Shown here piece by piece: positions 5,005 to 37,294 of a DNA stretch of 50,479 nt. This DNA comes from Bacteroidales bacterium (GTDB lineage Bacteria > Bacteroidota > Bacteroidia > Bacteroidales > UBA932): contig JAFVVN010000039.1 in NCBI GenBank assembly GCA_017502125.1, positions 75,505 through 125,983 on the forward strand, given 5' to 3'. Every line of letters begins with the position of its first letter. Position 1 is the first letter of the stretch. A program made the translations under genes and the position numbers. The notes under the pieces were generated by a model, which was given only the letters and a program-made list of their open reading frames with translations, did not search any database and was not told the DNA's origin.

Positions 5005-5142
5005 TTAGCAGAATATGTCACCCAGGTTTTCCTTTCCCATGCCTGGGGCTGAACCGTCACTCTGTGAGCCGCACAGAATGCCTTCCATGTACATTTCGAT
5101 CTCTCTCATCTGAGGAGTCTGATAGTTGTTGTTCTCTTTCAT
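5005..5142 (-). CDS. Small conserved peptide B (EGILCGS family, 45 aa)
   Basis: A short ORF between the fimbrillin/GLUG lipoprotein and peptide A, starting at the ATG at 5142-5140 and ending at TAA 5007-5005, 19 bp before the lipoprotein start. There is no signal peptide or membrane segment. Residues 7-26 fit the signature Y-[QE]-[ST]-P-x9-E-G-[IL]-L-C-G-S shared exactly, with identical spacing, by peptides at 5181-5330 and 37148-37294. The tail is Gly/Ser/Asp-rich and ends LGDIFC, close to peptide A's LGDIFA. Conservation of the motif among three otherwise diverged copies, each beside a fimbrillin-like gene, is the evidence that it is real. Function is unknown. Possibilities are an unmodified secreted or signalling peptide, a precursor cut near Gly-Ser, or a leader peptide controlling the next gene. 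Confidence 0.7.
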   Translation of the reverse strand: MKENNNYQTPQMREIEMYMEGILCGSQSDGSAPGMGKENLGDIFC

Positions 5143-5180
5143 ATGTCATCTGTTTTATTGTTGTTATTTCTGTGGTGTAA

Positions 5181-5330
5181 TTATGCGAAGATGTCTCCAA
5201 GGTCCTCGGAAGGCATGTCGTCGTTCCCGTCCCAGTCAAAGGTGGAACCGCAAAGCAGTCCTTCCATATTCAGAATCAGAAGAGAGGTCCTCGGTGATTC
5301 ATATTCATTGATTGTATATTTCTTATTCAT
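5181..5330 (-). CDS. Small conserved peptide A (EGLLCGS family, 49 aa)
   Basis: A short ORF in the 210-bp gap after the big fusion gene ending at 5353. I chose the ATG at 5330, 22 bp after that stop. The frame is open further upstream, but that would overlap the preceding gene. The shared 20-residue signature lies at residues 10-29 and ends EGLLCGS. The tail contains an acidic stretch with Trp (FDWDGNDD) and ends LGDIFA, nearly the same as peptide B 38 bp downstream. A and B are tandem duplicates that have diverged except in the signature and the LGDIF tail. No signal peptide and no modification enzyme or peptidase-containing ABC transporter is visible in the window. Function unknown. Confidence 0.7.
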   Translation of the reverse strand: MNKKYTINEYESPRTSLLILNMEGLLCGSTFDWDGNDDMPSEDLGDIFA

Positions 5331-5352
5331 ATGATTTCGGTTTTTCTGCGGT

Positions 5353-8300
5353 TTATAGTCCCTTGACATAGATCCAGTCCTCAGAAGAAGCTGAGTCGGA
5401 GATGGAATCTTCAGTACCTGTCGAGGATTCGTAGAGATGAGCGTTGAAGAGGAGCTTGCCGGAAACTGTTCCGAGAGAAGACTTGCTCACCCTGACCTCT
5501 GCAACATATCCCTTTGAGGATGCTGAAGAATCGAGCTCACCGTCATAAGCCACTGAGCAGGAAACTCCTGACACATTCTCCACAAGACCGCGAGCATTGA
5601 GCGACACCTTCATGCCGGTTCCGAGGTCGAGCGTGATCCTGTCAGAAGAGTGGAGTGACCTGTCCTTGACTTCTATGAGGAAATACAGATAGGAAGCATC
5701 GTCCGAGCAGCGGATCACTGCGCTTGCCTGAGATGAAGCTCCGAGGTAGAGGGCTTCGTCTGTGTCTGCCCACTCAGATGAAGAGGCATCCACGGTCACA
5801 GTCCTTGATGAGGATGTGATGCTGTGGTTGAGGGCAAATCTGGCAAGGGTGACGGTTGCATCTGCTGCATCGCCAGAGGCATTCCTGTCAACCGCCACAA
5901 GGCTGTGGTTTCCATCCACCATCAGGGAACTCCAGGTGGCGGCACTGAGATTCTGCATAAGGACTCTTTCGGCTCCGAAACCGGAAGCTGTCGCGTTTCC
6001 GATCTTGTGATATATGGTGTTAGGTATGTCCTCTGCGGCATATGAGAGCACGGTCTCTCCTGAAGGGAACTGAACGAGGCATGGTCCTATGCCGGATGCG
6101 AGATTGTCCTGACGGTCGGAAGCAGGAGTGGTCTCCTCACCCTGAAGGTTCTTCCAGCTGCCGTCTGAAGAAGAATGCACGACAGCTATCTTATGGTCGA
6201 GGTTGCCTATGCTTCCCTCCACGCACTCAAGGGCAAAGGCCATCCGGGACGAGCCGTTGAGGATCACGCCCACAGGCATCTGATATGTGAACTTGTTCTG
6301 GACACCGCCTCTGTTGGAAGCGTCCACCCAGAACTTACGCATCACCCTGAACGCCTTGTTTCCGAGGGAAGGTGTCCATGTGACTCCGTTGTCCTTGGAT
6401 TCGATCATGGATGTTCCGGAGTGGCTGTCGCTGATCCGTGGACGGCTTTCCGCAAAATAGATCTGGATGTGTCCTGCAGAAGGTTCCATGATGTGGCACT
6501 CCCAGTTAGGACCGTTGTATACGATCTTGGAAGAAGTCCAGCTGGCACCGTTGTCGCTTGAGAACTTGATGCGTATTCCATGCTCAAGGTTAGCCTCCTG
6601 GCCGGCCTGGTCTGTAGGGAATGCATCGTTCATGTCTACTCCTGACTTTGAATAATAGTCCTTGTTCCAGAAAGAAGACACTGCCATTAGCCTGCCGTCT
6701 TTCAGAAGCTTCACATTTGCGTTGGTCTGGAACTGATTGCCGGTGCGGGCAAAGAGTGCACCCTTATATGTCCAGGTCTCAAGGTCATTGCTGAGGGCGT
6801 AGTAGGTGTCGGCTCCGTTGTTGTTGCCGCCGTCACCGTTCTGCCAAGTCATTATATAGCCTCCGTCCTTCCTCTGAGAGATTCGAGGATAGCGTGGTCC
6901 GGTGCCGTTGCAGTCGACGTTCACAAGTTCATCATACATGAGATGGAGATGAGAGCGTCCTGCCTCGTCTGCATGCGAGTTTGTGGTCTGCGTGCCCTTG
7001 TTGAGATCGTCAAACGAGCTGAGTGTCAAGGATGTACCAGTCACTCCTTCCCAGGTGTTGTTTGAGAATGACGGAGTGGTGGTCTTGAAGTGCATTGTCT
7101 TGCGGATATAATCCTGACAGTTGGACGAGTTGACCTGCTCGGTGCCGTCCACCTTAATGGAACCTCCGAGGCGCACATTCGAGACTGTGAGAGCTGAGGT
7201 TCTTGTCGTACCGACCACCAGTCCGTAGCTCCAGTTGGACACTGTTTTCTTGATGATGGAGATCTGAGGCTTAGCTGCACCGCCTGTTATGTTCACTCCG
7301 TCAAGGGCAAAGCCTACGAAACCGCCCACAGGGCCTGTGATATAAGTCGCATAATTGGATATCTTTCCTGAAGACGCGCAGTCTGTGAAAGTAGCAAGGC
7401 GTGCCATTCCGACAAGTCCGCCTATGACGTGACAGTTGTTTTCGGCATTATATCCGGCCTTCACGGTTCCGTGGTTTGAGCATCTCACAAGGCTTGGGAC
7501 ACTTGAACCCTTTCCCACAAGAGCTCCCACGATTCCACCGGTACCGCATTTGGTGTTTCCTTTTTCATCATCTCCGAAATTATTGCCGTTGCGGACAGAG
7601 TTGATGACTTCACCGCTGTTCGAGCAGTCAGTGAATACGGTATTATAGCCTCCTACAGTGGAGTCCATATCGACATAGCAGTTGTTGTTGACGAACACTG
7701 CCGCGCTTCTTCCAAGGATACCTCCCACAGCCGAAGCACAAGTATTATTACTTGCACTGCCTGTCACGTCGATTCTGTGTACCTTGGCAGTCTCAGAGTT
7801 GACGCAGCCGTCGAACTCCACTCCGTTCAGCATCACGACTCCGCAGATGCCGCCGAAACCGGTCTTGGTCAATCGTCCGCCACCAGTCACGGTCACAATG
7901 ACATCGGCATTGTTGACACAGTTGATGAATTTTCCCGGAACAGAAGAAGAGGTCGGAGCACCGCCTGTCACTGTATGTCCCCAGGCAGCGAATCCACCGC
8001 CATAGCATACAACGGATTCAGTCTTGATGGTCAACAGAATATCACCATTGTTCACACAATCCTTGATGACACCGCCGTTCTGGCCCACAAAGCCGCCGAA
8101 GGCTGTCGAAGCTATGGTCTCGATGGTTCCGCTTACATTGTTGACACAGTTCTCGATGGTTCCGAGATTGACACGGGCGAAATTGGCGAAAGCGCCCTCG
8201 CCCTGAGCCTCGAGAGCGATGTAGGTGCCGGCTGCAGTAAGGTTCTTGATCACTCCGCCGGCAAGGAGGTTCTCGAAGAACGGACGGTTCTTTTCTCTTA

Positions 8301-9321
8301 CCCTTATCATGTGGCCGTTTCCGTCAAAGACTCCGTCGAAGTTCTCAATGTTAGGGAAGCTCTTGGATGAGGTGATGTCTGCATAGAGGTTGACCTCACC
8401 GTCCTTGCCCTTGAATCTGTCATAGTTGCCGCCCTTGACAGCGTTAGCAAAGGCAGTGAATCCTGCTGTGTTGTAGATTCCCGGAGCTGCGACCCTGAGA
8501 GAAGCCGTGTACACGCGTCCCGGGGTGAAGGTCAGAGGTGTGGCAGTCTGGAGATTGACCACATCACCATTGACATCTGTCACGGTCACTGCGATACCTG
8601 AAGCATATTCACCGGAAGGAATGGCGATGACAATCGGGGCTCCCTTCTCCACACCTGTTCCGCAGTCGATGGTAATATCTGATGACAGGTTGCAGGAAGC
8701 TGGAGCCATTGTGCAGCCTTCCGCTGAGAAGGAGGCTGTGAACTCACCGCTCATAGGCTCGGTGCCCAGAGAGCTCACTGTCACGGACTTGATCTTGTCG
8801 CTGTCGTAACCGTCCACATCCCTTGCGAGAACAAAGAGATATGACATGGCATGAGAGAATGCGAGCTGCTGTCCTTCTTCTGCAACATGGCCGAGCATGA
8901 CAGCTGCAGCCGGGTCGAAGGTGCCTGCATGATAAGTCTGTTCTGCAGGGAGTGTCACAACCGCTTTTCCGGATTCAAAACCGGAAGCAAGAGCAGAAGG
9001 ATAGACCGCATTGCACGGATAGTTGATTCCGTTCACCACAAAGGTGGCGGACTTCGGATCGGAAGGGTCTATGGTGATTGATGAGGATGTCCTGCCATTC
9101 ACCGAAATGGCATCACCGGGATTCCAGAGAACGGAATATCCGCCGGCGATCACAGACATGGATGTCTTGGTGCCAAGTCCGACAGACTCGACATCGGAAG
9201 GTGCTGATGCCTGGAAAGAGATGGTGATGCCCTCTTCGGTCACCCCGTGTCCAGCCTCCTCCTCTATGCATGAAATGCATAACGCCAGGGCGGACATCAG
9301 CAGAAAGGTCAGTTTTTTCAT
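5353..9321 (-). CDS. Fimbrillin-like / GLUG-repeat / Asp-box propeller fusion lipoprotein
   Basis: 1322 residues from the Met at 9321 (MKKLTF, lipobox CISC, then acidic IEEE residues suited to surface export). Domains in order: fimbrillin-like, about 20-285 (GTKTSM, VLWNPGDAISVNG, AVYPSA, LAFSHAMSYL); GLUG-like solenoid, about 310-745, with repeated GG-x-x-G and C-x-N-x-G blocks; propeller, about 765-1130, opened by FDDLNKG and NSHAD and carrying Asp-boxes SSDNGASW and SKDNGVTW plus NWE and FALE; CBM9-like sandwich, about 1150-1322. It is a one-gene version of the pair at 2559-4985 plus 764-2551. First gene of its transcript: it follows the terminator at 9458-9486 and has a -7 type element at 9356-9363. 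Likely a surface anchor with a glycan-active head; substrate unknown. Confidence 0.87.
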   Translation of the reverse strand: MKKLTFLLMSALALCISCIEEEAGHGVTEEGITISFQASAPSDVESVGLGTKTSMSVIAGGYSVLWNPGDAISVNGRTSSSITIDPSDPKSATFVVNGINYPCNAVYPSALASGFESGKAVVTLPAEQTYHAGTFDPAAAVMLGHVAEEGQQLAFSHAMSYLFVLARDVDGYDSDKIKSVTVSSLGTEPMSGEFTASFSAEGCTMAPASCNLSSDITIDCGTGVEKGAPIVIAIPSGEYASGIAVTVTDVNGDVVNLQTATPLTFTPGRVYTASLRVAAPGIYNTAGFTAFANAVKGGNYDRFKGKDGEVNLYADITSSKSFPNIENFDGVFDGNGHMIRVREKNRPFFENLLAGGVIKNLTAAGTYIALEAQGEGAFANFARVNLGTIENCVNNVSGTIETIASTAFGGFVGQNGGVIKDCVNNGDILLTIKTESVVCYGGGFAAWGHTVTGGAPTSSSVPGKFINCVNNADVIVTVTGGGRLTKTGFGGICGVVMLNGVEFDGCVNSETAKVHRIDVTGSASNNTCASAVGGILGRSAAVFVNNNCYVDMDSTVGGYNTVFTDCSNSGEVINSVRNGNNFGDDEKGNTKCGTGGIVGALVGKGSSVPSLVRCSNHGTVKAGYNAENNCHVIGGLVGMARLATFTDCASSGKISNYATYITGPVGGFVGFALDGVNITGGAAKPQISIIKKTVSNWSYGLVVGTTRTSALTVSNVRLGGSIKVDGTEQVNSSNCQDYIRKTMHFKTTTPSFSNNTWEGVTGTSLTLSSFDDLNKGTQTTNSHADEAGRSHLHLMYDELVNVDCNGTGPRYPRISQRKDGGYIMTWQNGDGGNNNGADTYYALSNDLETWTYKGALFARTGNQFQTNANVKLLKDGRLMAVSSFWNKDYYSKSGVDMNDAFPTDQAGQEANLEHGIRIKFSSDNGASWTSSKIVYNGPNWECHIMEPSAGHIQIYFAESRPRISDSHSGTSMIESKDNGVTWTPSLGNKAFRVMRKFWVDASNRGGVQNKFTYQMPVGVILNGSSRMAFALECVEGSIGNLDHKIAVVHSSSDGSWKNLQGEETTPASDRQDNLASGIGPCLVQFPSGETVLSYAAEDIPNTIYHKIGNATASGFGAERVLMQNLSAATWSSLMVDGNHSLVAVDRNASGDAADATVTLARFALNHSITSSSRTVTVDASSSEWADTDEALYLGASSQASAVIRCSDDASYLYFLIEVKDRSLHSSDRITLDLGTGMKVSLNARGLVENVSGVSCSVAYDGELDSSASSKGYVAEVRVSKSSLGTVSGKLLFNAHLYESSTGTEDSISDSASSEDWIYVKGL

Positions 9322-9355
9322 TGCTGCTATAATTATGGTGGTTAAACTTTTAGCA

Positions 9356-9363
9356 CAAAAATA
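9356..9363 (-). promoter_or_regulatory. Bacteroides-type -7 promoter element
   Basis: On the minus strand this reads TATTTTTG, matching TAnnTTTG. It lies about 35 bp upstream of the ATG at 9321 and just beyond the terminator of the upstream operon, the right place for the operon 9321 to 1. No clear TTTG -33 element is seen at the usual distance, so it may need an activator. Confidence 0.45.
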
Positions 9364-9457
9364 GACTAATGCTGACATCTATCCCCCCGATGGTCATATA
9401 GCGGCATTTTTTGAACGAATTTTACGACTATGCAGCAAGCATGAGGCACATATACGC

Positions 9458-9486
9458 AAAAAGGAGCCTGACTCGCGTCAGACTCC
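9458..9486 (-). terminator. Intrinsic terminator after the SusCD operon
   Basis: Read on the minus strand, a ten-pair stem (9463-9472 with 9477-9486, one G-T wobble) closes a four-base loop and is followed directly by a run of five T (9462-9458). It lies about 25 bp after the stop of the lipoprotein gene at 9511. Confidence 0.8.
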
Positions 9487-9510
9487 CATTACCACATATA
9501 AAGAAAATCA

Positions 9511-11106
9511 TTACTTGTTTCTTACGTGAGCAAAAACGCGAAGCTCAGCAACTCCCCACTGGCTCTCAGGCATCTCCTTTGCGAGGTTCATGAACTGTAC
9601 GCCGTCGATGGCATCCTTTTCCATAAGTACGCCGTCCACGTTGTCACGGGTTCTGGTGCAGCAGAGAATGAGAGATCCAAAATCAAATCCCTGAGGAGCC
9701 TTAGATTCATAAGGCTTCTTGATGGTTGTGGATACATAGTAGTTATTGTACTCCCATGTCCAAGGAAGAGCATCCTCCTCTACTGTAAGGCTCTGGATAG
9801 TACCATAAGCAAGACTTCCATCCTCTTTCTTATAGCAGTCGTACTCACGTACGTCAAGAGTCCAAGGCATCCAGTCGTGTCCGCCTGTCAGCTCCACATT
9901 GTCAGGTGCATAGATACCCTCATACTCGAAGATGATCTGATCCACTCTGTTAGGACAATTCTCCTTGCTTGGTCCCTGAGAAGACAGGTTGAAATTAAGT
10001 CTCAGATATGCACCTCTGACAGTTTCGTTGCCATCGATATCATATGCCTTGCTCTTTCCCCAGTTGTTTTCAGGGAATGATGGGATTCTCCAGTAAGTAG
10101 TGAGGTCACCGTCACCTGCATGCCAGAGGTTGTGAGGGGCTACGTCGATATTTGGCTGAGAACCGAACTCGCGGTAACATCCGTCAAATCCTGATGCGTC
10201 GCTTGAGATGACAAACTCTGTGAACTTGGTGAATGAGCCGCCAGCAGAAAGACTTCCGAGGTCAGCAACACCTGTGCGGTCGAGAGTCACTGCAGGCATA
10301 TCCTGAACATACATAAATCCTTCTGTCTTGAAACGTACTGACACACCCTCAGCCATTGCTGCAGGAACTGCAGGGATATAGTACACACCCGGAGCGATGG
10401 TCTCCTGACCTTCAGCCGGAGTGAGGATCACGTGAGGAACACCGTCAAGGACAGTTACTTCAGGAGCTGCATTGTCGTTGATGACAACTGTTGCCTTACC
10501 TGCAAGCGAGTTCTTCGCATTGAGGCTTCTGATGACAACTTCCTTCACATCTGAGTCAGTCACGTTCACCTTCATGTAACCGAGAACGTTGTAGAAATTG
10601 AGGGTCTTGTCAGTCGAAACTGCAACACGGAGGTTGGTAGCAGTCGAAGGAGCACCCACCTTGTCAGCAACATGCTTGTAAGGAAGGATGAGCTCGAGCT
10701 CGTTACCTACGAGGATAACATCTTCTGCATATGGGTATACTGCATATACCTTTTCTGCCTCGAAATCCTCACCGTCGAACTGAGCCTTCTTTCCTTCTTC
10801 TGTGATGGCCTCAGGTGTTGTGAGATATGGAAGAGCAGCTCCTTCGTCAGGATAGATACCGATGGTATCAAGCTCATGCCATACTACAGGAAGATTGTCG
10901 ACTGCCTCGAAGTTGACAGCAGTGTAACCTTCAAGCACTGGTTCCGGTTCTGGCTCGTCATTCGGGTCGTCAGGCTTGTTATTAGGGTCATCAGGCTGCT
11001 CCTGAGGATCCTTGTTTGGATCATCCTGAGGTTCGTCCACAGGATCGCAGGCCAGCAACATCACCGATGTCATGGCCATGAGTGCAAAAAGTCGATTGAA
11101 TTTCAT
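9511..11106 (-). CDS. SusE/F-position surface glycan-binding-type lipoprotein
   Basis: 531 residues with lipobox LLAC at about residue 20. An Asp/Pro-rich spacer (about residues 21-57, repeats of DDPN and PDDP) would hold the protein away from the membrane. Residues of about 60-290 look fimbrillin-like (VVWHELDTIGIY, YAVYPYA, a DRTGVADLG segment). The C-terminal half (about 295-531) has features of an F5/8-type C or related discoidin-like sandwich (WHAGDGDLTTYWR, then YLRLNF and WTLDVREYD). It is the last gene of the SusCD operon, before a strong terminator, the usual place for SusE/SusF-like or SGBP proteins. It probably binds glycan at the cell surface and has no catalytic motif. Family assignment of the C-terminal domain is moderate. 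Confidence 0.8.
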   Translation of the reverse strand: MKFNRLFALMAMTSVMLLACDPVDEPQDDPNKDPQEQPDDPNNKPDDPNDEPEPEPVLEGYTAVNFEAVDNLPVVWHELDTIGIYPDEGAALPYLTTPEAITEEGKKAQFDGEDFEAEKVYAVYPYAEDVILVGNELELILPYKHVADKVGAPSTATNLRVAVSTDKTLNFYNVLGYMKVNVTDSDVKEVVIRSLNAKNSLAGKATVVINDNAAPEVTVLDGVPHVILTPAEGQETIAPGVYYIPAVPAAMAEGVSVRFKTEGFMYVQDMPAVTLDRTGVADLGSLSAGGSFTKFTEFVISSDASGFDGCYREFGSQPNIDVAPHNLWHAGDGDLTTYWRIPSFPENNWGKSKAYDIDGNETVRGAYLRLNFNLSSQGPSKENCPNRVDQIIFEYEGIYAPDNVELTGGHDWMPWTLDVREYDCYKKEDGSLAYGTIQSLTVEEDALPWTWEYNNYYVSTTIKKPYESKAPQGFDFGSLILCCTRTRDNVDGVLMEKDAIDGVQFMNLAKEMPESQWGVAELRVFAHVRNK

Positions 11107-11138
11107 ATCAACAGTTTTTTAGTTAATAATATGGTGGT

Positions 11139-13040
11139 TTAAAGATTGTTCAGATAAACGACCTTTTCAAGTTCGCCGGTCATGTTGGCGGCCGCGTCAT
11201 AGACCGAAGCATTGAAGGCTGCCACTCCGTCAGAGAGGTTCAATTCATCCTTAGGGATGCTCAGCTCAAGGATATAGCCCTCATCCTCGTCGCTGTTGTC
11301 GTCGATTGTTCCGCCAAGGGCGATCTTCAGAACGGCGGCCGATTCGATGACAGACCATTTGCCGGAGTTGTAACGGCTTATAGACGATTTTCCGTCAGGC
11401 AAGATGGTCAATCTCAGTGCGCCATTTGTCACGACGTCTCCAGGAGCAAGCGGAGAAAGGACGAGAGTGACCTTGTCCCTCTTGGATATTGTCTTGTCAT
11501 GAGCCTCCACAAGGAGATATACATTGTCTGAATCACTCGAAGAGCGCACATTGGCAAAGGTGGTCTCTCCCGCATCAAGGTACAAGGCCTCATCAGTGTC
11601 AGCCCAGTCTGAATTGGAAGCATCCACCACCGGTGTCCTCTTGGTGGCACTTATGTCGTGATTGAGGGCGAACTTGGCAAGTGCGATACCTCTTCCGCCG
11701 TCCTGTGAATATTTGTTGGTCATCACAAGAATATGAGGGGCAGTTACAGTCTCGGATGACCATCCGCCATACTTAGGGAAAGGAGAGGAAGCACATACCT
11801 TCTGCCAATTACGAGCCTTATGGTCTCCGATCCTGTACATAAGTCTGGAGTTGCCATTCTGAGTATAGGTAAGCACTGTCTCGCCCGAAGGGAACTGAGC
11901 AAGAGCAGGGCCTATGCCATCCTTTCCTCCGTCAAGGTCATCGATTCTCTTGCAATCAGCCGGCACAGTGTGGTCTTCAGGAAGGTGCACCCAGTTGCCA
12001 TCCTCCGGAGAGAATACCACAGAGATGCTGTGCTTCTGTGCGCTGTTGGTCCATGAATCCACAACCTCCACTGCGAATGCAAACTGCTTGGAGTCATTGA
12101 GCAGGACTCCGACCGGCATCTGGTCACTTGCCAGATTCTGCTGTTTCTTCTCTGACCAATACACAGACCTCATGACAAAGTAAGGATATTCTCCGCGACC
12201 CGGCTCCCATGTCTTGCCTCCATCCTTCGAGATGACAAGGGCTGTACCGGAGTTCGCATCTGAAATCCACGGACGAGGATAGGCGAAATAGCAGTGGATG
12301 TCTCCATTTGGCAACTGAATCATGTGAGGCTCCCAGTTAGGGCCCTTGAAGAGATGGAACTCCTCACCCCAGGTCTGTCCGTTGTCCTTGGAGATCTTGC
12401 CGATGATGCCGTGGTCAAGCCAGCCGTCCAGCTTGTAATAAGACCCCACACTTCTGTAGGAGCTGATCACGAGCAGGTCACCGTTTGAGAGGACTATATG
12501 ATTGGCATTGGTGTAGTCATGTGAGTCCTCCTTTCCAAGGCTGTTGGTCACAAACCTCTGCTTCCAGAGAACACCCTTGCATTCCCAGTTGATGAAGTCC
12601 TTGCTTGTCGCATAGTAGGTGCTGTGACCGTTTCCGTTATTTGATCCCACTGCCGCCTGATATGTAAGGAAATATGTCCCGTCCTTGAGTATAGACACAC
12701 GAGGATAGGCCGGATAGTTGACCTTAAGTGACTTATATGGAATCTCGACATATGCCGATGACATCTTCACAATGGAAGACCTTGACGTGAGTCCTGCATG
12801 AGAATTGACCGCAGCCTTACCCTGATTCAGTTCCTCAAAGAGGGACAGGTTCAGAGACTGAGGTCCCTGAAGGGAATCCTGGGGTTCGTCCTGAGGATTA
12901 TCGGGAAGGGAGTCATTCGGCTGGTCCTGAGGCTCATCCTGAGGGTCCTCAGGAAGAGGAGGCCTCTCACAGGAGCTTACTCCGGTCAACAGGGCGAAAG
13001 CCAGACTGAAAATTCCAAAAGTTATAAGAGTCTTCTTCAT
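11139..13040 (-). CDS. Asp-box beta-propeller lipoprotein with CBM9-like domain, in SusCD operon
   Basis: 633 residues; the lipid Cys is at 24 (VSSC) and is followed by acidic/Pro-rich repeats of the PQDEPQD type (residues 25-60), a flexible surface spacer resembling the one in the next gene. The 'LSLFEELNQG' and 'NSHAG' signatures start the propeller near residue 65. Asp-boxes SKDNGQTW and SKDGGKTW are present, with conserved Glu237 in NWEPH and a second Glu in FAVE. The C-terminal 150 residues are CBM9-like (DWADTDEALYLD, VYLLVEAHDK). It sits 15 bp after susD. As with its four paralogues, GH93-like or sialidase-like hydrolysis, or pure binding, are all possible. Its place next to SusD suggests the first cut at the surface. 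Confidence 0.87.
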   Translation of the reverse strand: MKKTLITFGIFSLAFALLTGVSSCERPPLPEDPQDEPQDQPNDSLPDNPQDEPQDSLQGPQSLNLSLFEELNQGKAAVNSHAGLTSRSSIVKMSSAYVEIPYKSLKVNYPAYPRVSILKDGTYFLTYQAAVGSNNGNGHSTYYATSKDFINWECKGVLWKQRFVTNSLGKEDSHDYTNANHIVLSNGDLLVISSYRSVGSYYKLDGWLDHGIIGKISKDNGQTWGEEFHLFKGPNWEPHMIQLPNGDIHCYFAYPRPWISDANSGTALVISKDGGKTWEPGRGEYPYFVMRSVYWSEKKQQNLASDQMPVGVLLNDSKQFAFAVEVVDSWTNSAQKHSISVVFSPEDGNWVHLPEDHTVPADCKRIDDLDGGKDGIGPALAQFPSGETVLTYTQNGNSRLMYRIGDHKARNWQKVCASSPFPKYGGWSSETVTAPHILVMTNKYSQDGGRGIALAKFALNHDISATKRTPVVDASNSDWADTDEALYLDAGETTFANVRSSSDSDNVYLLVEAHDKTISKRDKVTLVLSPLAPGDVVTNGALRLTILPDGKSSISRYNSGKWSVIESAAVLKIALGGTIDDNSDEDEGYILELSIPKDELNLSDGVAAFNASVYDAAANMTGELEKVVYLNNL

Positions 13041-13055
13041 AGATCTGTCAAACTG

Positions 13056-14828: not shown

Positions 14829-14840
14829 AAACTACAGTTG

Positions 14841-18122: not shown

Positions 18123-18141
18123 ATCCGAATCCTTTTATTTT

Positions 18142-19017: not shown

Positions 19018-19047
19018 AAATAATAGGATATTAGTTTTTGTTTTCGG

Positions 19048-19055
19048 CAAATTTA
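19048..19055 (-). promoter_or_regulatory. Possible -7 element for the SusCD operon
   Basis: The minus strand reads TAAATTTG, matching TAnnTTTG, 31 bp upstream of the fimbrillin-like gene start and just past the 19062 stop of the regulator. No good -33 TTTG is seen about 19 bp upstream, as expected for an activator-dependent PUL promoter. The gap is AT-rich and only 44 bp long. Confidence 0.4.
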
Positions 19056-19061
19056 TTATAA

Positions 19062-22510: not shown

Positions 22511-22540
22511 ATAATTATGAACGTATTCTTACAACACTAT

Positions 22541-22900: not shown

Positions 22901-22911
22901 AATTTCTCCTA

Positions 22912-23211: not shown

Positions 23212-23226
23212 GCTACAAATCTCCTA

Positions 23227-23257
23227 CAAATATAAATATTTTATAATTCAATACAAA
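23227..23257 (-). promoter_or_regulatory. Consensus Bacteroides promoter of higBA
   Basis: On the minus strand TTTG (23257-23254), a 19-bp spacer, then TATATTTG (23234-23227), an exact fit to TTTG-N19-TAnnTTTG. The predicted start is about 10 bases before the higB ATG. The remainder of 23258-23422 is AT-rich with no gene seen. Confidence 0.8.
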
Positions 23258-23422
23258 TCATCACAGAAATTGCGATTTACAATATTTAAAAAGCTAACCG
23301 CCCTGCAAATATGATTATTTGTGGATAATTGGCAATCTGATTTCGCCACATTTTTCTTTTTTTTATAAAGATTTCTTTATTTTAGTTTCGCAAGTCTCAC
23401 CAATCTTCAATATATCAACAAC

Positions 23423-23449
23423 TAATCACTTGCTAAACTTGAGTGATTA
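23423..23449 (-). terminator. Weak hairpin at end of the GH operon
   Basis: Eight-pair stem TAATCACT / AGTGATTA (23423-23430 and 23442-23449) with an 11-base loop. One arm contains the TAA stop of the receptor gene. No U-run follows on the minus strand, so termination here is uncertain. Confidence 0.35.
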
Positions 23450-27807: not shown

Positions 27808-27817
27808 AAAGCCTTTT

Positions 27818-29809: not shown

Positions 29810-29816
29810 AATAGTG

Positions 29817-32072
29817 TTATTTATCCATAACTTCAAGTTTCAATGTCTGGAGTGTGCGGCTGTCCGGTCCGACCATGATTTCAAACTCTCCGGGTTCAAG
29901 AACCGGTTGAGGTGCACCTGTCTGGAACGGATCCACATAATACCACGAGAGCATGTCCGGAGTGATGTCAAACGCGACTTCGACAGTCTCGCCTGCCTTC
30001 ACATGAACCTTCCTGAAGGCCTTAAGCTCCTTCACCGGACGGGTCATCGACGAATACACATCGTGGATATACAACTGGACGGTCTCGTCTGCGTCGCGTG
30101 AACCGGTGTTGGTCACCTTCACGGAAGCCGTCACAGAACCATCCGAAGACACGGCATCCGCACTAAGGGAGAAGTCCCCATATTCGAACGTCGTATAGGA
30201 GAGTCCGTATCCGAAAGGATAAAGAGGACTGTTAGGACTGTCCATGTAGCTGCTGCTGAAGCGCTTATAATAATCAACCTTTGCCGGACGGCCTCCGTTC
30301 TTCATATTATAATATATAGGTATCTGTCCCACGTTGCGAGGGAAGGTCATCGTCAGCTTTCCTGACGGATTCACCTTTCCATATACGACATCCAGGATGG
30401 CATCCGCCGCCTCGCTTCCTCCGTACCACACATCAAGGATGGCCGCCATATTGCTGTCCTCCCATTCGAGAGTCATCGGACGGCCGGAGAAGAGCAGAAG
30501 CACCACAGGTTTGCCTGTCTTCACAAGAGCCTCCAGCAGACGCTTCTGAGGCTGAGGAATATCCAGATTCGTGCGGCTTGAAGCTTCTCCCGTCATCCAT
30601 GCCGGCTCTCCGACAGCAGCAAGCACGACATCCGACTGTCCAGCTGCAGCGACAGCCTCGCGGATCATCTGAGACTCGCTGCGAGGATCACGGACATATT
30701 TCCTGTTGCGGCAGGCAGCCTGTTCCAGCTCCGCATCCTCAAGCATATTGCTTCCCTTGGCAAACACGAAATCGCATCCCGCCTCCTTCATGGCTGCAAG
30801 AAGGGACCTACAGTCATCAAATGCCGCTCCCTGCCACGATCCGGTGTATTGTGCTCCCGCATCGGCCAGCGGGCCGACCAGAGCCACCTTCTTCCCTTTC
30901 GAAAGAGGAAGTGTGCCGTCATTCTTCAGAAGGACGAACGACTCAGCGGCAATCTCACGGGCAGCCTTCCGGTGTTCATCGGTATATATCCTGTTTTCCT
31001 CACATCTGAGGAACTTGTATGGATCATCAAGCAATCCCAATTTCTCTTTTGCCTCCAGCACCCTGCGGCAGGCCTGATCTACAGTCTTCATGGAGATCCT
31101 GCCTTCCTTGACCGAGGCGGCAAGCTCGCCCACATAGCCTTCGGTCATCATATCGGAGTCGACTCCGGCATTCAGAGCCAGTTCGCTGACTGTCTTCCTG
31201 TCCCCGATTCCGTGACGGACCATCTCGCCCACAGCATTATAGTCCGAGACCACGAATCCGTCGAAGCCCCACTGGTTGCGGAGGACCTCTGTCATGAGCC
31301 ACCTGTTTCCGGTTGCAGGGATTCCGTTCACGTCATTGAAAGAGGACATCACGCTGGCCACTCCGGCATCCACGGCTGCCTTGTACGGCGGAAAATACTC
31401 ATTGTACATCCTGGCAGGTGACATATCGGTCTCACGATAGTCCCTTCCTGCCTCGGAAGCGCCGTAAAGGGCGAAATGCTTCACACAGGCCAGGACCTCG
31501 TCATCATCATTCAGGTCTCCCTGGATTCCGCGAACCATGGTTTCAGCATACACAGAAGCAAGATACGGATCCTCTCCGGCTCCTTCCACACAGCGTCCCC
31601 AACGGGCGTCACGACAGATGTCCACCATAGGGTTATACAGCCATGTCAGACCGTCCGAAGAAGCCTCCACAGTGCTTATGCGTGCCGCACGTTCCATCGA
31701 CTCAGGATTCCATGTTGCGGACAGGGCAAGCGGAACCGGGAAAGTCGTGCGGTATCCATGGATGATGTCGGCTCCGAACAGGAGAGGGATTCCCAGACGG
31801 GACTCCTCCACCGCCATCTTCTGCCATGCCATGAGTTCATCCCTGTCATGACGTCCGAACAGGCTTCCGACAGCTCCGGAGCGGACCTTATCCGCCACTC
31901 CGGTACTCTGCTGCTCACCCGTCACCGCTCCGCGTGGAGCCACAAGGCAGTTCAACTGTCCGAGTTTCTCCTCCAGAGTCATCCGTGACATCAGTTCATC
32001 GACCTTTGTCTTCTCGGGGACACAGGCAGACAGCAGAAAGACTGCCGAAAGGAATATGGATATGCCTTTCAT
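29817..32072 (-). CDS. GH3 beta-glycosidase lipoprotein (BglX-like)
   Basis: 751 residues; lipid Cys at about 17 (LLSAC). Contains the GH3 N-terminal TIM barrel (MTLEEKLGQL, 'GADIIHGYRTTFPVPLALSATW', 'VKHFALYG') with nucleophile Asp277 in GFVVSDYNA. Next come the alpha/beta sandwich ('SFVLLKNDGTLPLSKGKKVALVGPLA', 'GEAS') and a fibronectin-III-like C-terminal domain ('PFGYGLSYTTFEYG', then 'VTNTGSRDADETVQLY'). Length and order are normal for BglX-type beta-glucosidases or xylosidases. The exact sugar cannot be read from sequence. Starts 3 bp after the GH39-like gene. Confidence 0.93.
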   Translation of the reverse strand: MKGISIFLSAVFLLSACVPEKTKVDELMSRMTLEEKLGQLNCLVAPRGAVTGEQQSTGVADKVRSGAVGSLFGRHDRDELMAWQKMAVEESRLGIPLLFGADIIHGYRTTFPVPLALSATWNPESMERAARISTVEASSDGLTWLYNPMVDICRDARWGRCVEGAGEDPYLASVYAETMVRGIQGDLNDDDEVLACVKHFALYGASEAGRDYRETDMSPARMYNEYFPPYKAAVDAGVASVMSSFNDVNGIPATGNRWLMTEVLRNQWGFDGFVVSDYNAVGEMVRHGIGDRKTVSELALNAGVDSDMMTEGYVGELAASVKEGRISMKTVDQACRRVLEAKEKLGLLDDPYKFLRCEENRIYTDEHRKAAREIAAESFVLLKNDGTLPLSKGKKVALVGPLADAGAQYTGSWQGAAFDDCRSLLAAMKEAGCDFVFAKGSNMLEDAELEQAACRNRKYVRDPRSESQMIREAVAAAGQSDVVLAAVGEPAWMTGEASSRTNLDIPQPQKRLLEALVKTGKPVVLLLFSGRPMTLEWEDSNMAAILDVWYGGSEAADAILDVVYGKVNPSGKLTMTFPRNVGQIPIYYNMKNGGRPAKVDYYKRFSSSYMDSPNSPLYPFGYGLSYTTFEYGDFSLSADAVSSDGSVTASVKVTNTGSRDADETVQLYIHDVYSSMTRPVKELKAFRKVHVKAGETVEVAFDITPDMLSWYYVDPFQTGAPQPVLEPGEFEIMVGPDSRTLQTLKLEVMDK

Positions 32073-32075
32073 ATA

Positions 32076-33470
32076 TTATCTGATATCAATGTAAACAACA
32101 GAGTTCGGAGCTATCCACATCGAAGCCTTGCCCTCATTGAATTCGACAGGAACCTGCGTATAGACATGGAACTCGTCAGTCACATAGCTCACAGCCTCCT
32201 TTATCTCCTTGCCGGCAATCTCGATCTCCACCTTCCTGTGGGCAACCACATTCTTGTCGTTTGTGAAGAATGACATCAGCACTCCGCATCTTCCATCCTC
32301 ACCCACTGCAGATGTGACATACACATCAGGACAGTCAGTCACCACGGACTTCACCTGAGTGCCGAGGTTAACCAGATTCTTCCATGCATAGAGAGCATAA
32401 TACTGAGGAAGCGGAGCTCCCTTATAGAAGTCGAAAAGACCGTTGTATGACACTCTCGGGCGGGCATCATAGTACATGAGCATATCCACCGGGCCGTCCT
32501 GGCATGCAGACATCACGGATGCAAGGAAAGCTGCACCCTTATGGGAAGTCACCACCTCCATGGTCTCCTTCCACTCGGTCGTCCAGTTGGAAAGATAGTT
32601 CCACTCATCCAGGATCATCTCCACATCGGAATATCCGTACTTGTCAAGCAGGGCCTTGATGCGGTCGTTCTTCGCGATGAACTTGTCCGGTCCCGAAGCA
32701 TAAAGGTGATATGAGAAGAAATCCAGCTCCACCTTGTGCTCAGACATGTATTTGAGGAAATTGTCTGCCCAGGCATCATTCTCGCAGAGCGCAGGTCCGC
32801 CTATCTTGAGGTGCGGGAAGCACTTGTTGAGATGGTTCGCAGCAGTCTCATAGAACTTGAAGAAATCAGTGTCCGAACCGTTCCATGTAGGCGACATGTT
32901 CTTCTTCCAGCGTCCGTCCTTGAATCCGAGGTCAGGTTCATTCCATATCTCCCAGTACTCTATGTCATAATGGAAGCCGTCAGCCCATCCTTCAGTGTAG
33001 TGACGGATGATGTGCTCGCATATCTTAGCCCATTTCTTATAGTCCTTAGGCGGAATCACGCCATATTTCTTGCTCCACTTCTCGATGGACTGGCCCAGAC
33101 GGTAGAACACCTTGGTTCCCGCTGCCTGGATGTCGGACAGAAGCACGTCGGTCAGTTCAAAGTCATACGACTTCGGGTCGTTCACATCCGCGTCGAAATC
33201 AGGAAACACGCATGTGATGTCCACAGTATGTGCCCAACCCCAGTTGATAGGAGCATCATGAAGGCGGGCATATGGAAATTCCGCAGCCTTGTATGCCGGG
33301 AAATTTGTGGTGCTGGAATTAGGATTCGGGCTCTGAGGTCCGTTGTTGACAGCATTCATCAGCTTTATCTCACCAACCGGCTCATCTGCCTTCACAACAA
33401 TCTGCGCCATGGCAGAGACAGTAGAAACCGCCACACAAAGGGCAATCAGAAACAGTCTTTTTGTATTCAT
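32076..33470 (-). CDS. GH39-like clan-A glycosidase
   Basis: 464 residues with a signal peptide ending AMAQ (about 23). TIM-barrel features of clan GH-A: Glu178 in EIWNEPD (acid/base) and Glu289 in MILDEWN (nucleophile), 111 residues apart. It also has 'ARLHDAP' near residue 68 and a C-terminal beta domain. GH39 is the best fit (beta-xylosidase, alpha-iduronidase or related); other clan-A families with the same two motifs, such as GH30 or GH5, are less likely. Periplasmic. It begins a run of close genes (3-10 bp gaps, last pair overlapping) ending at 23447, but an intrinsic terminator separates it from the DUF5107-TPR gene, so it probably has its own promoter or receives read-through. Confidence 0.85.
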   Translation of the reverse strand: MNTKRLFLIALCVAVSTVSAMAQIVVKADEPVGEIKLMNAVNNGPQSPNPNSSTTNFPAYKAAEFPYARLHDAPINWGWAHTVDITCVFPDFDADVNDPKSYDFELTDVLLSDIQAAGTKVFYRLGQSIEKWSKKYGVIPPKDYKKWAKICEHIIRHYTEGWADGFHYDIEYWEIWNEPDLGFKDGRWKKNMSPTWNGSDTDFFKFYETAANHLNKCFPHLKIGGPALCENDAWADNFLKYMSEHKVELDFFSYHLYASGPDKFIAKNDRIKALLDKYGYSDVEMILDEWNYLSNWTTEWKETMEVVTSHKGAAFLASVMSACQDGPVDMLMYYDARPRVSYNGLFDFYKGAPLPQYYALYAWKNLVNLGTQVKSVVTDCPDVYVTSAVGEDGRCGVLMSFFTNDKNVVAHRKVEIEIAGKEIKEAVSYVTDEFHVYTQVPVEFNEGKASMWIAPNSVVYIDIR

Positions 33471-33505
33471 CGTGTCATCAATTATATGTTATGGATTGCT
33501 AAATT

Positions 33506-33545
33506 ATAAAAATGCGGGTGCCCAAGCAAGCAAAGGCCCCCGCAT
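33506..33545 (-). terminator. Intrinsic terminator after the DUF5107-TPR gene
   Basis: Stem ATGCGGG / CCCGCAT (33512-33518 with 33539-33545) with some inner pairs. On the minus strand the T-rich TTTTTATAATTT follows. It lies between the 33593 stop and the GH39-like ATG at 33470. Confidence 0.6.
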
Positions 33546-33592
33546 ATCAGATTTTTGGTTGAAATATATCGGTTTTTGGGCGGAAATTATAA

Positions 33593-36500
33593 TCACTCCG
33601 CAAGTTCGCCGAGATGATACAGAGACCACAGATGGTCGTTCCTTTCCTTGAGTGCCTTACGGAAAGCCCTTCTGGCCAGCCAGTTTCTTCCAAGCGCCTT
33701 GTATCCCACTCCCTGCATATAATATGCAGCTGCATTCACATCCTGCTCATAAGGTCCCCTGTCAAAGCTCTCCCAGAATCTCTGGACATAGGTGGTGATT
33801 CCAGCCTTGCCTGTCTTCACAATATCCTTATACATGGCCTTCACCGGAGCCTTCGGGTCAAGTTTTCTCATGGCAAGACCCTTTTCGAAATTATATATTC
33901 CGTCGGCAGGCTTGACAAATACCTCAGAAGCCATCTGATAATATCTTTCCGCACTTTCCGCATCACCGACCTTCTCATATGCAAGACCTATGTTATAATA
34001 GACCTGTGCATCGCGGGCATAGTACTCGAGATGGGCGTATCCGTGATTCTCAGGATATTCGTTCGCAAGAAGCATATACTTCAGGGCTTCTTCATTGTCT
34101 CCCCTGGTCCAGGCCTCGAAGCCTGACAGCAGACACACGTCCACATAGATGTCGTGCAGGTCCTCAATATGCTCGCGACGGCTGTAGAAACGTGTCTGAA
34201 GTTTCTCAAGCACAGGGGCATATTCGCCCTGAAGGATCCTCTGCTTGAGGGCCTTGGTCTCTGAATCATAGCGTTTTTCATAAAGAGCCTCCTTTCCATT
34301 GAAAAGATCATATCTTTCAGAAAGAGGTGCCTTCACGAATTCCATGATCTCGTCACATTCAGCGAGGAAGATGGCATTGCCGTCAGTATCCGACTCTATG
34401 GCCTGCTTGTAATAGCCTATCGCCTTTGCATAATCGGAGAAGTCCTTGTCCTTGTTTTCATTCCTGAACCTCCAGTACCATCCGAGATTACGCAGAGCCA
34501 TAGCGAAATCAGGCTTTGCCTCAACAGCCTTCTCCCAGCATGCACGAGCCTGGTCCGGCTGCTTGTGGTAGTAGAGATTACCAAGATAGTACCACGTGTT
34601 GTGGCTGTCAGGAATATATTCCAGAGCCTTCTCAAAAGCCTTTATGCTCTCAAGACGGAACGGGAACACGTAGTCTATGGTGCAGCTCTCCGCATTCCTG
34701 AAGTGAGCCAGAGCCTGCTGACTGTCACCTGCCTTGTCTGCAAGATAGCCGAGCCAGTACTCGACTGTAGGATATGGTCTGACCGCTTCCGATGAGGTCA
34801 GGACATCCTTCATCTCCTTGACAAAGCCATTGTTATAATAGTAGAGAGCGAGCTCAAGATATGACTCCGGCACCCCGCGGAGAAGGGCCTTGAGTTCCGT
34901 AGCCGGTTTTGCTCCCAGAAGCACGAGCTCATTGGTTGCATAATAGTTGAGCGGATCGAACTTCACCACTTCCCGGGCCAGTGCAACAGCCTCAGACTTC
35001 CTTCCGGCATGACGGAGAAGGGTCGTCTTGAGATTTCTGGCATCAATATTCATCCCGTTATAGTTCACGGCCATATCCACTTCCTCAAGAGCACGCCTGT
35101 CGTTCCCAAGCCTTGCCGATATCTGAGCCAGCTGATAGTAGGCAGCCGAAGCATATTCATAGTCCCATGCAGCTCTATAGAGCGTGTCTATTGCCGGCTC
35201 CCATTTTTCCTGAGCCTTGAGTATCAGACCGAGATTGTACATTGCTTCCCCGTCTGACGGGCGGGTATAATTTGCGGTCTGACGGCTGACAGCCCTGCGG
35301 AGATGCTCTGCTGCCCTGTCATAATCACCCGCCTTGCGAAGAAGGATACCCACCTGAGTGTTGGTCCTGACATCACCGGGATCGCGGCGCAGCACCTCAT
35401 TGAAATAGTCCATAGGATCCGTATGTGCCTGATGGAACTGGAGATTACGCATGCCCACATAGAAGAGTTCCTCGGTGTTCTCTATGCTCTTCGGATCAGG
35501 ATTCACAGGAAGCAGGTCCTCCGGATGAGGCTTGCTCAGGTCATGCTTGTACGGATGGTAGTCGATAAGCAGCTCTCCCTCTGCCGAATACAGACTCATA
35601 AGCACCTCTGCAGGTTCTGCCACCTCTGAAGCATCCACCTTGAAATCATCGGCGAAAGGTCTGTCAGGAGACATTGTAGCCACCTTGGAGTAGAGCACCT
35701 TGCCGTTATGGGAGACCTCGACCCTTGCATTACGACGGATCTGAGTCACATTTGCTGCGACATGGATGGCTCCGGAAGGGTCTATATCCATATTGACGGT
35801 AGCCTTCTCGTTTCCACGGTTGACATTATCGAGATCACGTATTCCATACCAATATGCAGTGAATTCCTTTGTCTCCTGCGGGTTGATCCAGCAGTAGTCA
35901 GGCTGGTTGTCGGAATAGGCCGCGGTCATAAGTTCCACATACGGACCATCCGAATCGGTGAGGGTCACACAGTCCCAGGCATGGCCATAGGCATGAGGGC
36001 CCCAGGTCCAGAATTTTCCACCTTTATTTATATTGTGGTTTCCGGCAAGCATCGTTCCGGCATCGACACCATGGTCATATCCTCCCACGAAATCATCCTG
36101 AAGATCATGGATGAAGACGGAATCTCCGGTAAGCGAAGGCAGATTCTTCCACCAGCTGATGTCAGTGCCCACATAGGCCGGATTGTTCTTGTATGGTGTC
36201 TGAGGAACAGGCCAATGTATATGACTGAGCTTGTGATGGAACATTCCGAACTCCGTGCACTCCGGGAAGATGATCTGGTAGTTCTCATTTGCATGGGTGG
36301 CCACATTGTTCCAATGGAGCATCGAGTTCCTGTCTATGGAGTTGTTGAAGAAACGTCCTGTAACCTCGATATAGGACTTGTCCGGGTGGAGTGTCAGACC
36401 CACAGCCCAGCTCATCCTATGACGGTTTTCCACTTCTCCCACCCAGATGGTCTTAGAGCCGTCGCCATTGTCGACAAGCTTGAAATCGATCGGATACTGG

Positions 36501-36937
36501 CTGGTCGCACGGTGGTGATGAAAGACATTCCACTCCACACCTCCCGAAATCCAGGCTCCGAGCATACCCACGTTTGCGGGCTTGATGACGCTCTGGCGAT
36601 AGAATATCTCATACCCGTTGGTCTTGTCCGTAGCATAGAAAAGACGGCCACCTATGTCAGGGAGCACACAGACCTTGACATAGTCATTCTCAAGGTAGAG
36701 TGCCCTGTGAGCGGAATCCACCTTTTCGATCGTAGGGTTGTCATTCATCGCGTACGGGTATACACCTCGTTTTGCACGCTGATAGGCAAAGTCCCTCTCG
36801 AAAAGAGGCGCTCTCTCAGGCGCATTCACTCTGTAGGTAGGCAGGTTTTCCACTCCTTCCCACATCTTCACCGGTCCGTTCTGTGCCGAAGCAGTCAGAG
36901 CGGCAAACAGCAGGATAATCGCATATGTCTTTTTCAT
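33593..36937 (-). CDS. DUF5107 domain protein with TPR repeats
   Basis: 1114 residues from the Met at 36937 (MKKTYA, signal peptide to about SAQ); the longer frame start at 36988 would add a non-signal stretch. The N-terminal part (about 40-400) carries the DUF5107-type sandwich with 'IGGRLFYATDK' and 'GGVEWNVFHHHR'. From about 490 to the end are TPR-like repeats ('AGDYDRAAEHLRRAV', 'NTWYYLGNLYYHKQPDQARACWEKAV'). A paralogue is cut off at the left window edge. Probably periplasmic, with the TPR part docking other proteins and the sandwich likely binding or cutting a glycan. No catalytic residue is assigned. It is separated from the next genes by a terminator. Confidence 0.85.
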   Translation of the reverse strand: MKKTYAIILLFAALTASAQNGPVKMWEGVENLPTYRVNAPERAPLFERDFAYQRAKRGVYPYAMNDNPTIEKVDSAHRALYLENDYVKVCVLPDIGGRLFYATDKTNGYEIFYRQSVIKPANVGMLGAWISGGVEWNVFHHHRATSQYPIDFKLVDNGDGSKTIWVGEVENRHRMSWAVGLTLHPDKSYIEVTGRFFNNSIDRNSMLHWNNVATHANENYQIIFPECTEFGMFHHKLSHIHWPVPQTPYKNNPAYVGTDISWWKNLPSLTGDSVFIHDLQDDFVGGYDHGVDAGTMLAGNHNINKGGKFWTWGPHAYGHAWDCVTLTDSDGPYVELMTAAYSDNQPDYCWINPQETKEFTAYWYGIRDLDNVNRGNEKATVNMDIDPSGAIHVAANVTQIRRNARVEVSHNGKVLYSKVATMSPDRPFADDFKVDASEVAEPAEVLMSLYSAEGELLIDYHPYKHDLSKPHPEDLLPVNPDPKSIENTEELFYVGMRNLQFHQAHTDPMDYFNEVLRRDPGDVRTNTQVGILLRKAGDYDRAAEHLRRAVSRQTANYTRPSDGEAMYNLGLILKAQEKWEPAIDTLYRAAWDYEYASAAYYQLAQISARLGNDRRALEEVDMAVNYNGMNIDARNLKTTLLRHAGRKSEAVALAREVVKFDPLNYYATNELVLLGAKPATELKALLRGVPESYLELALYYYNNGFVKEMKDVLTSSEAVRPYPTVEYWLGYLADKAGDSQQALAHFRNAESCTIDYVFPFRLESIKAFEKALEYIPDSHNTWYYLGNLYYHKQPDQARACWEKAVEAKPDFAMALRNLGWYWRFRNENKDKDFSDYAKAIGYYKQAIESDTDGNAIFLAECDEIMEFVKAPLSERYDLFNGKEALYEKRYDSETKALKQRILQGEYAPVLEKLQTRFYSRREHIEDLHDIYVDVCLLSGFEAWTRGDNEEALKYMLLANEYPENHGYAHLEYYARDAQVYYNIGLAYEKVGDAESAERYYQMASEVFVKPADGIYNFEKGLAMRKLDPKAPVKAMYKDIVKTGKAGITTYVQRFWESFDRGPYEQDVNAAAYYMQGVGYKALGRNWLARRAFRKALKERNDHLWSLYHLGELAE

Positions 36938-37147
36938 TTCACTGGTGGTATTAGATTTCTTGTGCAAAGGAAAGACTTTAAACAACACGATTTTTCACAA
37001 AAATCCCGACTTATGCAAGATTACTCCCAAATGCAATAAAAATCTCAAAACACGCAAAGGATATCCCATCAGTCGCAACACTTATATATATGAAAGGTTA
37101 AATCTTTCATTTTTGCCGGCAGAATAACATTAAAACAAAAACCGATC
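36938..37147. promoter_or_regulatory. Divergent intergenic region between DUF5107-TPR gene and peptide C
   Basis: 210 bp of AT-rich DNA with promoters needed on both strands. A perfect 7-bp inverted repeat ATGAAAG / CTTTCAT lies at 37090-37110. A CATTTTTG sequence (37108-37115, one mismatch to TAnnTTTG) could be the plus -7 element. GCAAAGGA occurs twice (near 36962 and 37055). No gene seen. Confidence 0.45.
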
Positions 37148-37294
37148 ATGAAAACCAAAATCTATCAGACTCCGGAGGTACAGACTCTGGAAATGCTACA
37201 GGAAGGAATATTATGCGGCTCCGACAAGGCAAATGCCGGAACGGGAGCAAGCTGGGGAGTCGAGAACGGCGACGACGTCGACTTCAATCTATAA
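37148..37294 (+). CDS. Small conserved peptide C (EGILCGS family, 48 aa)
   Basis: ORF from ATG 37148 to TAA 37292-37294, the first gene of the plus-strand operon. Residues 6-25 match the 20-residue signature Y-[QE]-[ST]-P-x9-E-G-[IL]-L-C-G-S seen in peptides A and B with identical spacing, though the three are on opposite arms of the window some 32 kb apart. The tail is Gly/Asn/Asp-rich and ends DDVDFNL, without the LGDIF of A and B. Its stop overlaps a strong AAGGAGGA site for the next gene, so the two are likely translated together. No signal peptide. Function unknown. Confidence 0.72.
   Translation: MKTKIYQTPEVQTLEMLQEGILCGSDKANAGTGASWGVENGDDVDFNL

Follow-up and report, generated by a model that had tools for sequence, protein, structure and literature searches.

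Small peptides encoded beside surface lipoprotein genes in Bacteroidales are probable precursors of a dispersed pathway resembling that of the linear polyphosphorylated peptides

Linear polyphosphorylated peptides (LPPs), ribosomally synthesised and post-translationally modified peptides (RiPPs), were reported in 2026 from Bacillota, with the lpp cluster of Paenibacillus alginolyticus (Popov et al. 2026, PMC13381572). As the main text of that paper describes it, a RiPP recognition element (RRE) binds the YxxP leader of the precursor, a HprK-like kinase phosphorylates core residue Ser3 several times, and a SipW-like signal peptidase, aided by the RRE, removes the leader; the precursor consensus is YxxPxVLxHQxIxFETxxS. 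Here we compare with this pathway three small peptides, A, B and C, encoded in a stretch of 50,479 nucleotides (hereafter the window) from a Bacteroidales bacterium of lineage UBA932 (GCA_017502125.1, contig JAFVVN010000039.1, positions 75,505 to 125,983). We consider it probable that these peptides are dispersed RiPP-type precursors of an LPP-like linear phosphopeptide pathway that is tied to surface lipoproteins. One enzyme set, encoded elsewhere in the genome, probably trims, phosphorylates and exports these peptides.

The three open reading frames (ORFs) lie at the positions and on the strands given by an earlier note on this DNA, and the exact pattern that it described, Y[QE][ST]P-x9-EG[IL]LCGS, is present three times when the window is translated in all six frames, compared with 1.5e-8 occurrences expected by chance from the amino-acid composition. 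When the pattern is relaxed to a Met start, Y..P and a Ser 11-18 residues past Pro, A, B and C are the sole small YxxP ORFs of the window that are not within a larger gene. The LGDIF ending common to A and B, also pointed out by the note, is real. Pfam and NCBIfam models gave no match to any of the three. When B and C are compared with their counterparts in another genome of the genus (G032), non-synonymous (dN) and synonymous (dS) divergence amount to 0.27 and 1.29 for B and to 0.21 and 1.18 for C, a ratio of about 0.2 in both cases; because dN is well below dS, translated peptides are favoured. Three further peptide pairs gave dN/dS values of 0.06/0.10, 0.01/0 and 0.41/1.15, and the pooled pN/pS across peptide pairs was 0.42. 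Although the sequences are short, these values favour genuine coding genes.

A profile of the three window peptides (A1) matched the window's 2.34-Mb genome (G000) at 16 places, one of them false, namely a match inside an efflux-pump gene (L015) that was excluded from the subsequent profile of 40 members (A2). The latter detected 19 members in the same genome at E<=1e-3. Family members are present in 46 of the 61 sampled genomes of the genus, with a maximum of 27 in G032; G057 has 11, and genus genomes that are at least 90% complete hold between 0 and 27 each. The observation of the earlier note is correct, and larger in extent than first described. The common layout is a short Lys-rich start, followed by Y-x-x-P (40/40), a hydrophobic and acidic run, E-G-[VI]-[LI]-C-x-S (Cys in 37 and Ser in 38 of the 40 members) and a variable tail of about 18 residues, which is net negative in all 40 members and carries W, F, Y, L or I within its last four positions in 39. 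In a broad set of 34 members, drawn from Fibrobacter records as well as several genera, all have Tyr and Pro and 33 have Ser. Since C.S is missing from 18 of these 34 while Ser is kept, the common residue is Ser, not Cys, and a Cys-based reading was dropped. EG[IL]LCGS, proposed at the outset, is not in itself the signature of the family, the constants across genera being Tyr, Pro and a Ser about 19 residues past Tyr. The conservation of Ser is partly selected, because sets A2 and A7 were gathered by motif-led searches; when Ser is not part of the pattern, 20 small ORFs, a few of them spurious, are found on the same strand no more than 6 kb from the kinase gene described below, and 17 of these 20 have Ser 16-21 residues past Tyr.

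Some members show further peculiarities. One region of the window's genome (L053, G000:C79, 6676-10997) holds three tandem pairs of peptide and lipoprotein genes with very similar leaders, in which LSAS or LQSS replaces LCxS. In G032 one lipoprotein-peptide-lipoprotein region is duplicated on two contigs (L062 and L063, C5 and C13) with identical peptide sequence. The ends HLA, QLA or RLA are common to YxxP peptides of Prevotella and Fibrobacter records, hinting at a common C-terminal function or at transfer between phyla.

The position of the peptide genes is equally characteristic. After an overlap filter had removed 14 of 78 pattern-matched ORFs (several of them real and overlapping another ORF), 64 distinct peptides were kept, and 62 of these are followed on the same strand, at a distance of no more than 250 nt, by an ORF of 100 aa or longer; the two others are a spurious plus-strand ORF of L046 and a peptide cut by a contig end (L140). 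The downstream protein has a lipobox by a simple pattern in 56 of the 62 cases and a signal-like start in 60, compared with a lipobox in 98 of 316 same-strand neighbours of genes in large fetched regions. The neighbourhood that the earlier note wished to see in other genomes, peptides beside fimbrillin-like lipoprotein genes, is thus found there. Gaps to the next gene are short (median 11.5 nt, 5th-75th percentile -23 to 15 nt; 19 nt for B and 12 nt for C), and overlap with its start is frequent. Peptide A is situated between a fused lipoprotein-propeller gene and B, and, counted from its long start, has the same downstream partner as B. For one peptide of the window's genome (L004/L046) the next ORF encodes a non-lipoprotein and a lipoprotein precedes instead, and in Prevotella-type loci the peptide is located after a large secreted protein. 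In 59 partner proteins the N-terminal stretch is fimbrillin-like, with hardly any variation at the lipid Cys and at a Trp, and 8 of the 59 match Pfam Mfa_like_1. Similarity of the tails tracks similarity of the partners (Mantel r 0.49, p 2e-4, 53 units), with r 0.26 for the leaders; these correlations drop to 0.24 (tail) and 0.08 (leader) when close pairs are removed, and the correlation is partly common descent of the peptide-lipoprotein unit.

It had been noted that no RiPP-type enzyme is visible beside the peptides. This is true of the window; its genome does, however, hold a RiPP-type set on other contigs, comprising a PqqD-type RRE, a HprK-like kinase, a signal-peptidase-like protein, an NTP_transf_5 protein and an ABC exporter. 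The RRE is a discrete protein with independent support from PF05402, its E-value of 1e-41 with our RRE profile being by construction, as it is itself a row of the underlying alignment A5. An RRE of a relative resembles the lasso RREs TfuB1/FusB1 and TbiB1 in fold and sequence at 17-24% identity, and LppB (9x8z) gave a non-significant match to the RRE profile (E 0.72). The kinase reached E 3.4e-85 with a profile that did not contain its own sequence, and SGTGKSTH and NDD are invariant; a relative has weak best matches to Hpr_kinase_C (0.0061) and to ScmC/HprK-related models (1e-5 to 7e-5). In the signal-peptidase-like protein S34, H74 and D89 are invariant among eight sequences, its own included, and the top PDB matches are SEC11A/C (E 2e-4 to 2e-3); for LppS residues S29, H68 and D93 are given (PMC13381572). 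The NTP transferase is assigned by PF14907 (E 2.2e-34), a domain also present in L266 and L268 and not found in the runs of L143, L147 and L152. The exporter is assigned by PF00664 and PF00005, and is putatively MsbA-like. In L110, L268 and L142 kinase, RRE and NTP-transferase genes lie among or next to glycosyltransferase, Poly_export or ManC-like genes, as identified partly by reading and by Pfam. A separate region of G057 (L106, C3) has a radical SAM/SPASM-type gene, and a second one recognised by reading, adjoining two PqqD genes, a HprK-like and an S24-like gene, and is possibly a mixed RiPP cluster.

Peptides and enzymes tend to occur in the same genomes. Within the genus any RRE is found in 42 of 46 peptide genomes and in 9 of 15 peptide-free ones (p 0.010), an RRE at E<1e-30, a cut chosen after viewing the list, in 39/46 versus 4/15 (p 6e-5), and the kinase in 41/46 versus 8/15 (p 0.006). 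Among 247 genomes from 165 genera of the order, taken to be Bacteroidales, the broad peptide profile has matches in 14, the RRE in 33 and the kinase in 36, and all 14 peptide-positive genomes have both RRE and kinase. When the six genomes that had contributed to the profiles are excluded, the RRE is present in 8 of 8 peptide genomes versus 27 of 241 (9e-9), and all eight remaining peptide matches read as YxxP peptides. Peptide and RRE are separated by 84 nt to about 10 kb in 5 of the 14 genomes. A single run of L266 contains, in this order, genes for a YxxP peptide, a lipoprotein, the HprK-like kinase, the signal-peptidase-like (SpI-like) protein, PqqD, NTP_transf_5 and the ABC transporter. 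The Prevotella-type loci L164, L165, L169, L191 and L206 have a secreted protein, the peptide and then enzyme genes, without an SpI match in L191. Precursors are clustered with enzymes in L266, L268, L164, L165 and L169. In L214 the gene of a window-type peptide, that of its lipoprotein and a PqqD gene adjoin one another. A YxxP ORF, in some cases spurious, was present in 25 of the 80 loci used, which are the best 80 of 591, with a bias towards Prevotella from the rumen and Fibrobacter records.

On this basis a pathway can be proposed. The leader would comprise the Lys-rich start and YxxP and reach to about EG-[IVL]-[LI]-C, and the core would consist of the conserved Ser with the acidic, Gly/Asn/Asp-rich tail of about 18 residues. 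We assume that the stand-alone PqqD-type RRE holds the YxxP of the leader, that the HprK-like kinase phosphorylates the conserved Ser and that the endoplasmic reticulum (ER)/archaeal-type signal-peptidase-like enzyme takes off the leader by a cut just ahead of this residue. Phosphorylation of the Ser and cleavage before it are proposed because the parts and the spacing of YxxP and Ser match the LPP pathway. The NTP_transf_5 enzyme may decorate the phosphate, and the MsbA-like ABC transporter would export the acidic linear phosphopeptide core. The enzymes in the genus are usually encoded once per genome, apart from the precursors, which are scattered and in most cases directly precede a surface-lipoprotein gene; after maturation, the peptide probably acts together with its lipoprotein at the cell surface. 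Of the several roles that the earlier note left open, a precursor cut near Gly-Ser is the one favoured by the evidence, and overall the interpretation given in the note is partly supported. One may go further and imagine that each phosphorylated core is made for one surface lipoprotein, onto which it is loaded, or between which and surface polysaccharide it is anchored by its phosphate; this is a tentative and rather doubtful extension. If true, a Bacteroidota RiPP pathway fits fimbrillin-like surface proteins with cognate phosphopeptides and does not make a free natural product, with a repertoire of about 20 or more such phosphopeptides in some genomes.

A number of observations weigh against a dispersed LPP-like pathway. 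The genomes are related, and the p values overstate their independence. Among the 25 genus genomes at least 90% complete the link is weaker, with any RRE in 18/18 versus 5/7 (p 0.07) and the kinase in 17/18 versus 5/7 (p 0.18), the strong RRE being the only significant cut (16/18 versus 2/7, p 0.007). Five of the 46 peptide genomes are without a kinase match, and G032, the richest in peptides, is without a HprK-like match at 91% completeness; four are without an RRE match (61, 63, 88 and 85% complete). Conversely, no peptide match was obtained in 19 of the 33 genomes of the order that have the RRE. The kinase-like protein of the window's genome has no Pfam or NCBIfam match, and the precursors of this genome are not beside the enzymes, neither in the window nor in L103 and L142. 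Outside the genus the pairing with lipoproteins is less strict, the lipobox pattern being present in four of the next genes at 10 loci of the eight other genomes. Finally, the HQ and FET of the LPP consensus, as given in the main text of PMC13381572, are not in the precursors here, in which Tyr and Pro (40/40) and Ser (38/40) are kept.

Other explanations have to be considered. The peptides could be small proteins that stay unmodified and serve the lipoprotein encoded downstream, in the cytoplasm or at the membrane, as a chaperone, secretion pilot or regulator, the link to the RRE being indirect. The lipoprotein gene directly after the peptide (56/62) and the tails that vary with the partner (Mantel r 0.49) speak for this reading; we nevertheless regard it as unlikely in view of the co-occurrence of RRE and kinase in 14/14 peptide genomes, the single runs that peptides share with enzyme genes and the lasso-type YxxP leader motif in 40/40 and 34/34 aligned members, which had been collected by that motif. 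The short gap and the frequent overlap with the next start speak for leader ORFs through which translation of the next gene is controlled by attenuation, arrest or coupling. This is very unlikely, since dN is well below dS for B and C, the conserved residues are located mid-peptide and not terminally, and Prevotella-type peptides follow large secreted proteins and precede enzyme genes. The YxxP leader and the lasso-type RRE raise the question of lasso peptide precursors with an unlinked cyclase. However, the acid at core position 7-9 that is obligatory for the ring is present in at most 24 of 40 members for any of four core starts, and reading of the L266 and L169 runs showed neither a cyclase nor a B2 gene among their genes, a genome-wide cyclase search not having been made; lacking a constant ring-closing Asp/Glu, this highly improbable reading was dropped. 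Export as double-glycine-type peptides via a C39-peptidase transporter, suggested by the Gly-Ser that A, B and C have close to the presumed junction, is scarcely credible: the Gly preceding Ser is not conserved, and Peptidase_C39 (PF03412) was found in 2 of 10 genomes and not in G000 (78% complete), G032 and G057, which carry 19, 27 and 11 peptides, so that this reading was dropped as well. Chance resemblance among unrelated ORFs, for which their shortness speaks, is negligible in the face of three exact matches instead of 1.5e-8, members in 46/61 genomes and dN/dS of about 0.2.

The features discussed are collected in Table 1. In the window B and C precede lipoprotein genes; the earlier note's term 'fimbrillin-like' rests mainly on the N-terminus of the encoded proteins, and its propeller partners rest on sub-threshold BNR matches in the fused protein upstream of A. 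The window's partner lipoproteins, when scanned, gave no Pfam Mfa_like_1 match, and an AlphaFold model of the fimbrillin-like domain (pLDDT 46) was too poor for a fold search. Short tandem repeats of period 24 at 48948-49080, shortly past the downstream end of an EF-Ts-like gene on the minus strand (49136-50131), give rise to several spurious Cys/Gly-rich ORFs.

Table 1. Coordinates and assignments of peptides, neighbouring genes and related loci; positions without a locus label refer to the window.
Feature	Position	Strand	Remarks
Peptide A	5181..5330	-	49 aa, YxxP...EGLLCGS, precursor-like; in-frame ATG also upstream at 5369
Peptide B	5005..5142	-	45 aa, precursor-like; in tandem, after A
Peptide C	37148..37294	+	48 aa, precursor-like; opens its gene run
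Lipoprotein directly downstream of B	2559..4985	-	808 aa from ATG at 4985; fimbrillin-like N-terminus
Propeller-like lipoprotein after the 2559..4985 gene	764..2551	-	by reading and likeness to the fused protein
Fused fimbrillin-like and BNR-propeller-like lipoprotein upstream of A	5353..9321	-	BNR_2 E 0.01, below cut-off
Lipoprotein directly downstream of C	37307..39301	+	fimbrillin-like N-terminus; weak Fib_succ_major C-terminus
Propeller-like partner of the lipoprotein after C	39305..41008	+	by reading
Fused fimbrillin-like and propeller-like lipoprotein	41015..44779	+	without a peptide ahead
Parts of L106	807-956 and 8135-12455	-	YxxP peptide (LLAGSG type) about 7 kb from enzyme genes
Peptides ending in HLA, QLA or RLA	L169: 4050-4190, 8702-8848; L177: 3485-3634, 8616-8759; L183: 4156-4290		
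Polysaccharide-gene settings			L110 (G050:C6), L268 (G282:C2), L142 (window's genome, C28)

These findings connect the small genes of a large and so far unnamed family with a definite biosynthetic logic, and they offer a testable idea of small-ORF function. They extend the HprK/RRE/signal-peptidase RiPP pathway of Bacillota to Bacteroidota, and precursors scattered beside lipoprotein genes, with a distant enzyme set, would escape cluster-based mining. The cell surface is indicated as the site of action of a kind of RiPP for which the main text of PMC13381572 reports that no biological role is known in Bacilli.

Among described systems, phosphorylated lasso peptides of the paeninodin type share with the family a [Y/W]xxP leader, an RRE, a HprK-like kinase and an NTP transferase, as far as the main text of PMC13381572 presents them; contrary to these, the peptides here have no constant ring-closing acid, and no macrolactam cyclase or B2 peptidase was seen in the runs read. 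The settings of TfuB1/FusB1 and TbiB1 differ as well, in that no lasso cluster was seen around the RREs read here. Prochlorosins, in which many unlinked precursors are served by one enzyme, resemble the dispersed precursors and single machinery proposed here and differ in their enzymes and chemistry. The closest match is the LPP pathway as presented in the main text of PMC13381572. Common to both are a YxxP leader, a discrete RRE, a HprK-like kinase, a leader peptidase resembling archaeal/ER-type signal peptidases, an NTP transferase (LppN being compared by name), an MsbA-like ABC exporter, variable C-termini and a conserved Ser soon after the presumed leader, the distance from Tyr to Ser being 19 in the EGxLCxS type and, by our own count, 18 in LPP; polysaccharide genes are nearby, as in Bacilli. 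Unlike LPP, the present family occurs in Bacteroidota and Fibrobacter records, its precursors are mostly paired with a surface lipoprotein, two genomes hold 19 and 27 scattered precursors instead of 1-3 per cluster, and the enzymes are not linked to the window's precursors. No word starting with 'Bacteroid' or 'fimbri' occurs in that main text, and at the level of titles and abstract openings no fimbrillin-linked small peptide or Bacteroidota LPP was found described in the literature. Within the reach of these searches, what is new is a branch in Bacteroidota, the scattering of 19 and 27 precursors in two genomes and the association of precursors with surface lipoproteins. Because the window's peptides depart from LPP in precursor consensus and clustering, we do not file them as LPP; by analogy of their parts, they probably work like LPP.
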